Part shown: positions 33,070 through 33,361 of the stretch, piece by piece | Layout of the letters: every line of letters begins with the position of its first letter | Position numbering within the stretch: position 1 is the first letter of the stretch | NCBI GenBank assembly: GCA_018663505.1 | Contig: JABJQG010000017.1 | Span: 1-33,361 of the forward strand | DNA: 33,361 nucleotides | Reading direction: 5' to 3' | Source: Pseudobdellovibrionaceae bacterium | GTDB lineage: Bacteria > Bdellovibrionota > Bdellovibrionia > Bdellovibrionales > UBA1609 | Position numbers and translations under genes: made by a program | Notes under the pieces: model-generated | The model's database searches: none | The model's input: only the letters and a program-made list of their open reading frames with translations | Told to the model about the DNA's origin: nothing

Positions 33070-33116
33070 GGTTTATTGGGGTTGAATTTGAAGATTTGGT
33101 AGCTAAAGAGATGATC

Positions 33117-33279
33117 TTTCCGTCCGTGGGAGATCGAGGCTGGCCGCCTCGAGCACTGCAATCTAATGGCATCGTGCCATTAGATCTATTAAAATATTAA
33201 TATTCGAGACAAACTGAATCTATTTCTTTCAATAGATTCCCCCACACGACGTGGGGGAATTGGCAGGTTCGGGCCGCCC
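33117..33279. repeat. Hairpin-rich inverted-repeat element, REPIN-like (right copy)
   Basis: The layout is the same as at 70-229 but inverted. A 7-bp stem lies at 33134-33140/33146-33152 (TCGAGGC) and an 11-bp stem at 33161-33171/33175-33185 (ATCTAATGGCA, 3-nt loop). An AT-rich spacer follows, then a 10-bp stem at 33236-33245/33251-33260 (ATTCCCCCAC). The first two stems differ in sequence from the left copy (CAGGGGC and ATTCTCCCAC) but remain fully paired, while the linkers (TGGGAGATC, GCAAT, ATCTAT) are conserved. The inner module is again interrupted by the insertion-sequence end. Confidence 0.65.
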
Positions 33280-33361
33280 TTGTTACTAAAGGAACATAGG
33301 TAACATTATCTAGTCACGACATAGGTTACACTTTATACGGATAACTGGAGGTAGTTATGCC
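33280..33361 (+). mobile_element. Terminal segment of an insertion sequence (right copy, extends off the window)
   Basis: Bases 33280-33347 are the exact inverted copy of 1-68. Two direct repeats, ACATAGGTAACA (33294-33305) and ACATAGGTTACA (33319-33330), start 25 bp apart. Downstream, GGAGGT (33347-33352) is followed by ATG at 33357, so the element's first gene reads rightwards out of the window. Confidence 0.7.
33357..33361 (+). CDS. First codon of a gene running off the window, probably the transposase
   Basis: GGAGGT ends 4 nt before an ATG at 33357-33359, an ideal initiation site. Only Met and the first two bases (GC) of the following codon are visible... the reading CC at the end suggests Met-Pro or similar only if the frame is read as ATG-CC. 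Product identity is inferred from its position inside the repeated insertion-sequence end, not from its own sequence. Confidence 0.45.

Follow-up and report, generated by a model that had tools for sequence, protein, structure and literature searches.

Inverted pairs of double-hairpin modules form a dispersed, probably mobile repeat family in a Pseudobdellovibrionaceae genome

Results

Both contig ends carry a double-hairpin element cut by an insertion sequence

The stretch of DNA analysed here, in the following called the window, is 33,361 nucleotides long and comprises the entire contig C64 of a draft Pseudobdellovibrionaceae genome (G000; 3.78 Mb in 72 contigs). Its two ends lie within two copies of a repeat element, each interrupted by an IS481-family insertion sequence at which the assembly breaks. 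At the right end, the insertion sequence occupies positions 33281 to 33361 on the forward strand, begins with TGTTACTAAAGGAACATAGG and contains the start of an ORF (MPWKK..., from position 33357) before it is cut by the contig end. The end of the second copy is located at positions 1 to 67 on the reverse strand (C64:1-66, 100% identical) and is likewise cut by the contig end.

Next to each insertion sequence lies a copy of the repeat element. The original prediction had described a double-hairpin element in two copies, each with a second, inverted module, and both copies were found with this arrangement. The right copy contains a module of type A-a (33111 to 33195, forward strand; module alignment A1), which consists of the head TTTCCGTCCGTGGGAGA, two hairpins and the tail ATCTAT and is matched by the covariance model R1 with 97.9 bits (E 9.1e-25). 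According to the pair table, hairpin 1 (type A) is located at 33134 to 33152 on the forward strand with the 7-bp stem TCGAGGC/GCCTCGA, and hairpin 2 (type a) at 33161 to 33185 on the same strand with an 11-bp stem and the loop TCG. An A+T-rich spacer (33196 to 33225), a segment usually 25-35 nt long, separates this module from the second one on the reverse strand, which is of type C-c and lies at 33236 to 33279 (R1 match 33226-33304, 45 bits). Hairpin 2 of this module is located at 33236-33260 on the reverse strand, and reading of the junction shows that hairpin 1 is cut by the insertion sequence. In the left copy, the intact module is of type B-d and is located at 150 to 236 on the reverse strand (hairpin 1 at 193-213, hairpin 2 at 160-184; R1 match 85.7 bits, E 3.6e-21). 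Its partner is a type C-c module at 68 to 122 on the forward strand (R1 match 44-122, 41.5 bits) with hairpin 2 at 88-112 and, again, a hairpin 1 cut by the insertion sequence.

The element belongs to a dispersed intergenic family

A blastn search of the window's genome with the right copy as query gave 48 matches, and the covariance-model search proposed with the original prediction identified 117 modules (R1, E ≤ 0.01), so that the recurrence of the two end copies is not due to chance. The family has far more than two members and stem changes are not confined to one arm, so that this check did not refute the claim of the original prediction. Altogether, the modules form 54 inverted pairs and eight single or cut-off modules, that is 62 elements; this number may be one too high, since the same module found with equal score at two contig ends (C27:12-97 and C53:50137-50222) probably reflects a contig overlap. 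All elements are dispersed and intergenic, and the spacers within the pairs are mostly 25-35 nt long. A parent transposon located between widely spaced modules was also considered and rejected, as ordinary genes (Lon, ClpX and ClpP by sequence) surround the two solo modules of contig C4.

For the anatomy of the module, 70 half-elements were excised and aligned. The head TTTCC[A/G]TCC[A/G]TGGGAGA, or a variant of it, is followed by hairpin 1 with 7 bp and a linker, the last letters of which are usually GCAAT or CCAAT. Hairpin 2 with 11 bp and the loop TCG comes next, and ATCTAT concludes the module. Hairpin 1 occurs in four types, A (CGAGGC), B (CAGGGGC), C (CGGGCC) and D (CAGGGC), and the main types of hairpin 2 are a (CTAATGGCA), b (TCTTCAACA), c (TCCCCCACG) and d (TCTCCCACG). 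One A or B module is joined to one C or D module in 54 of 54 inverted pairs, with modules left unassigned by pattern matching typed by eye as near variants or as cut by the insertion sequence. The complete element is about 200-300 bp long, and imperfect outer inverted repeats extend past the modules by up to about 45 nt.

Intergenic gaps that carry an element are frequently convergent. With simple ORF calling, 25 of 51 such gaps lie between convergent and five between divergent genes; the other gaps of the same loci include 26 convergent and 49 divergent ones among 200 (Fisher p 1.3e-7 for the convergent excess).

The insertion sequence was found exclusively in hairpin 1. One further copy is located at C56:5-1283. 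The 384-aa transposase ORF matches PF13683, PF00665 and PF13011 (rve, LZ_Tnp_IS481), and the ends TGTTAC... and ...GTTACA (TG...CA) agree with assignment to the IS481 family. All 17 readable junctions, eight at the left and nine at the right end, lie in hairpin 1 of the element (15 in type C, two in type B); a tenth right end, which extends past the end of contig C56, was left out of this count. The junctions have the motif GCCG|CCNN in common, and comparison of the two sides suggests a 4-bp duplication, for instance CCTT or CCCC.

Stems differ mainly by exchange of hairpin types

Among the 70 aligned modules, 98.5% of the 1,260 stem cells are paired in the structure described above, and only 23-47% pair if the partner is slid by one to three columns. 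Both sides vary in twelve of the 18 stem pairs. A covariation score of 0.625 was obtained, compared with 0.24 after shuffling and no more than 0.16 after sliding, a control that ignores the relatedness of the modules; counting within types lessens this problem and does not remove it.

The original prediction took the different but perfectly paired stems of the two end copies as compensatory changes. Chimeric modules exist in which hairpin 1 of type B is combined with hairpin 2 of type a, which indicates that the hairpins move as cassettes. The pair of modules compared in the prediction is an A-a and a B-d module, and most of the difference between their stems (CGAGGC versus CAGGGGC; CTAATGGCA versus TCTCCCACG) is therefore cassette exchange. 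True compensation is found within the types: 16 changes are two-sided and paired, for example TA to AT in L041 and CG to TA in L015, L033 and L036, and 25 are one-sided, of which seven retain a standard pair. Within types, the stems are 89-100% identical, the heads 52-82% and the tails 67-78%. The predicted selection on a folded structure thus draws support from the changes within types, although palindrome-templated repair or conversion could yield the same pattern.

Diverged relatives occur in other genomes of the order

The element is absent from all 46 other genomes of the family. R1 identified diverged members in G095, a genome from a different family within the order (15 matches, inverted pairs included), and a single match in G030; its search of the phylum added no further members. 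An independent model, R2, was built from 18 modules of G095 and one of G030. It recovers the modules of the window's genome with E values down to 2.3e-22 and detects six modules in G030, clear matches in G113, G104 and G108, and near-threshold matches in four more genomes. Five other genomes of the order therefore hold diverged members with the same architecture and different stem sequences. No match was found in phages or plasmids; four viral contigs with the head pattern were judged to be chance occurrences (best R1 match 19.8 bits). In the literature search, no publication that connects such repeats with Bdellovibrio was found.

Modules adjoin Y1 transposase genes in G095

G095 contains two clades of IS200-like Y1 (HUH) transposase genes, and proteins of both exceed the Pfam cut-off for PF01797 (Y1_Tnp). 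The clade 1 gene encodes a protein of 175-198 aa and is present in five intact and two broken copies. Two of these genes have inverted modules on both sides, and the homology between them stops at the outer boundary of the right module. The distance between module and gene is about 37 nt at C6:322928, and a third clade 1 gene has a module about 330 nt downstream, at C6:59300. The clade 2 genes are accompanied by a partner module with one hairpin, X, which is located about 270-290 nt upstream in all five units compared and also near a sixth gene at a contig edge. X is part of the repeated unit of about 1 kb that carries the clade 2 gene, and in dispersed elements it has an A-type module as partner (L169, L166, and L236 in G113). 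The modules of G030, G113 and G104 do not adjoin such Y1 genes. Module and Y1 gene were seen side by side in G095 only, and the support for mobilisation by such an enzyme is one of association; because the 46 other genomes of the family do not contain the element, the link to the transposase runs through the homology of modules between two families. The G095-type Y1 gene is also present in many copies accompanied by no module that R1 or R2 recognises, with 25 copies in G053 (same family), 19 in G004 and others elsewhere. Several of the G053 genes have the motif GGAGCGATGG upstream.

Contrary to expectation, no RAYT gene was found beside the element in the window's genome. The Y1 genes of this genome belong to other clades, the clade 1 gene of G095 has no match there at 1e-5, and none of the nine Y1_Tnp loci examined has a module nearby. 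These genes were rejected as partners of the element, as most of those inspected are bordered by unrelated inverted repeats (GGTGCCAGG... or GGTACG...CACTTTTGCGACT).

Discussion

The dispersed intergenic elements, their organisation as inverted dimers, the relatives of the same architecture in the order and the neighbouring Y1 genes in G095 bear out the proposal of a lineage-specific REP-type mobile repeat. We consider it likely that the element is a non-autonomous, REPIN-like element which moves as folded single-stranded DNA and is orphaned in the window's genome. Each copy has two distinguishable ends in inverted orientation, one A/B and one C/D, each with a head followed by two hairpins. 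A HUH/Y1 enzyme of the G095 kind might recognise the hairpins on single-stranded DNA, comparable to the ends of REP and IS200/IS605 elements, nick beside them and move the element in trans. The cognate enzyme could have been lost from the window's genome or be missing from the assembly, and the orphan family would survive mainly downstream of genes and serve as target of the IS481-family insertion sequence. Neither a target-site duplication of the element nor an empty site was identified, and no autonomous parent with the same ends was found.

The covariation could also originate from mutation instead of selection, if the arms of the palindrome template each other's repair and thus change together. 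The outer arms of one copy are indeed more similar to each other than to those of different copies (p < 2e-4 up to a distance of 45 nt) and match even where copies differ, as in L062, with a perfect match of 30 nt, and others, which suggests palindrome-templated conversion. However, the left and right ends keep different types in 54 of 54 pairs, and conversion of the whole palindrome therefore does not homogenise the hairpins, although local conversion inside one hairpin may still occur. We regard this origin of the covariation, which is compatible with a mobile element, as unlikely. The stems could instead be maintained at the RNA level. An unreported structured RNA, as suggested alternatively by the original prediction, has no support here: the window matches no Rfam family at the gathering or a permissive threshold, and the right copy contains no intrinsic terminator. 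A related proposal, made for REP/BIME sequences of E. coli, would regard the hairpins as bidirectional mRNA processing or stabilising signals in the 3′ untranslated regions of convergent genes, with selection on the RNA fold. It would explain the convergent bias (25 of 51 versus 26 of 200 gaps), the higher identity of the stems than of heads and tails, and the compensatory changes within types. But avoidance of promoters and genes also leads inserting elements to build up in convergent gaps, and the lack of a terminator-like site and of an Rfam match, together with the absence from the rest of the family, makes this function quite improbable.

A classical MITE, derived by internal deletion from a DDE transposon and bounded by long terminal inverted repeats, would fit the length of up to about 300 bp, the imperfect inverted repeats that extend about 45 nt past the modules and the similarity of the spacers within subfamilies. 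Against such an origin, the sequence types of the two ends differ, no target-site duplication was evident when the flanks were read by eye, and the neighbours in G095 are Y1 genes. Moreover, no module pair enclosing a transposase gene was found among the R1 matches and pairs of the window's genome. It is thus very improbable that the element is a MITE.

The REPIN-like element preferred here shares short palindromic inverted pairs (54 among the 62 elements), high copy number, intergenic location and conserved hairpin-loop letters with REPINs and BIMEs and their TnpA-REP (RAYT) genes (PMC3116915, PMC8266576, PMC6006769). The Y1 genes beside the units are shared as well, here in the relative G095, where the diverged family flanks them. 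In contrast to a REPIN, the unit has two hairpins instead of one, two different end types are always paired, and no cognate gene flanked by units was found in the window's genome. A conserved GT[AG]G foot is also absent; the letters before hairpin 1 vary in the window's genome (GGGAGATC, TGACAATC, TGAGAAATC) and read GAGAATC or TGCAATC in G095. Because neither this foot nor a same-genome gene was found, we do not classify the element as a REPIN, although in function it most likely resembles one. Heterodimers of GTAG- and CGTC-tagged REPs (PMC3733652) likewise consist of different stems with spacers of 20-100 bp, some within longer palindromes, but their defining stem-adjacent tag is not conserved here, and Bdellovibrio is not mentioned in that paper. 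Y1 genes combined with atypical secondary structures that recur elsewhere in the genome are also known from TnpA-Y1 class 3 and subclass 2.6, the latter mostly from Bacteroidetes (PMC6006769). Class 3 has the signature Y----Q and the foot CnGA, whereas the clade 1 proteins of G095 read YHELND.

More speculatively, the family may represent a distinct class of single-stranded-DNA mobile elements with two double-hairpin ends, always one A/B and one C/D, and an architecture conserved across several families of one order. It would be served by divergent Y1 enzymes with a code other than GT[AG]G, exchange hairpins as cassettes and offer hairpin 1 as exclusive landing site for an IS481-type insertion sequence. 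The findings extend REP/REPIN-type elements to a lineage for which we found no description, with a unit that differs in having two hairpins and two end types. With a naturally orphaned family on one side and candidate enzymes in a relative on the other, recognition of the hairpins by the enzyme becomes testable.

Insertion sequences found only inside copies of palindromic repeats are known from ISPpu9, ISPpu10 and ISPsy8, which target REPs (PMC1525189). The insertion sequence described here is of the IS481 family (DDE, rve), which does not appear in that paper, and its exclusive insertion into one hairpin provides a further example of a site-specific DDE insertion sequence.

Several Y1 genes of the window's genome (L049 1195-2512, L050 1361-2139, L052 1115-2079, L053 1232-1936 and L054 1233-1935) each have their own terminal inverted repeats of 27-37 nt (GGTGCCAGG... 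or GGTACG...TTTTGCGACT). They look like TIR-associated tyrosine transposases, and their flanks resemble those of the TIR-associated genes described in PMC3733652.
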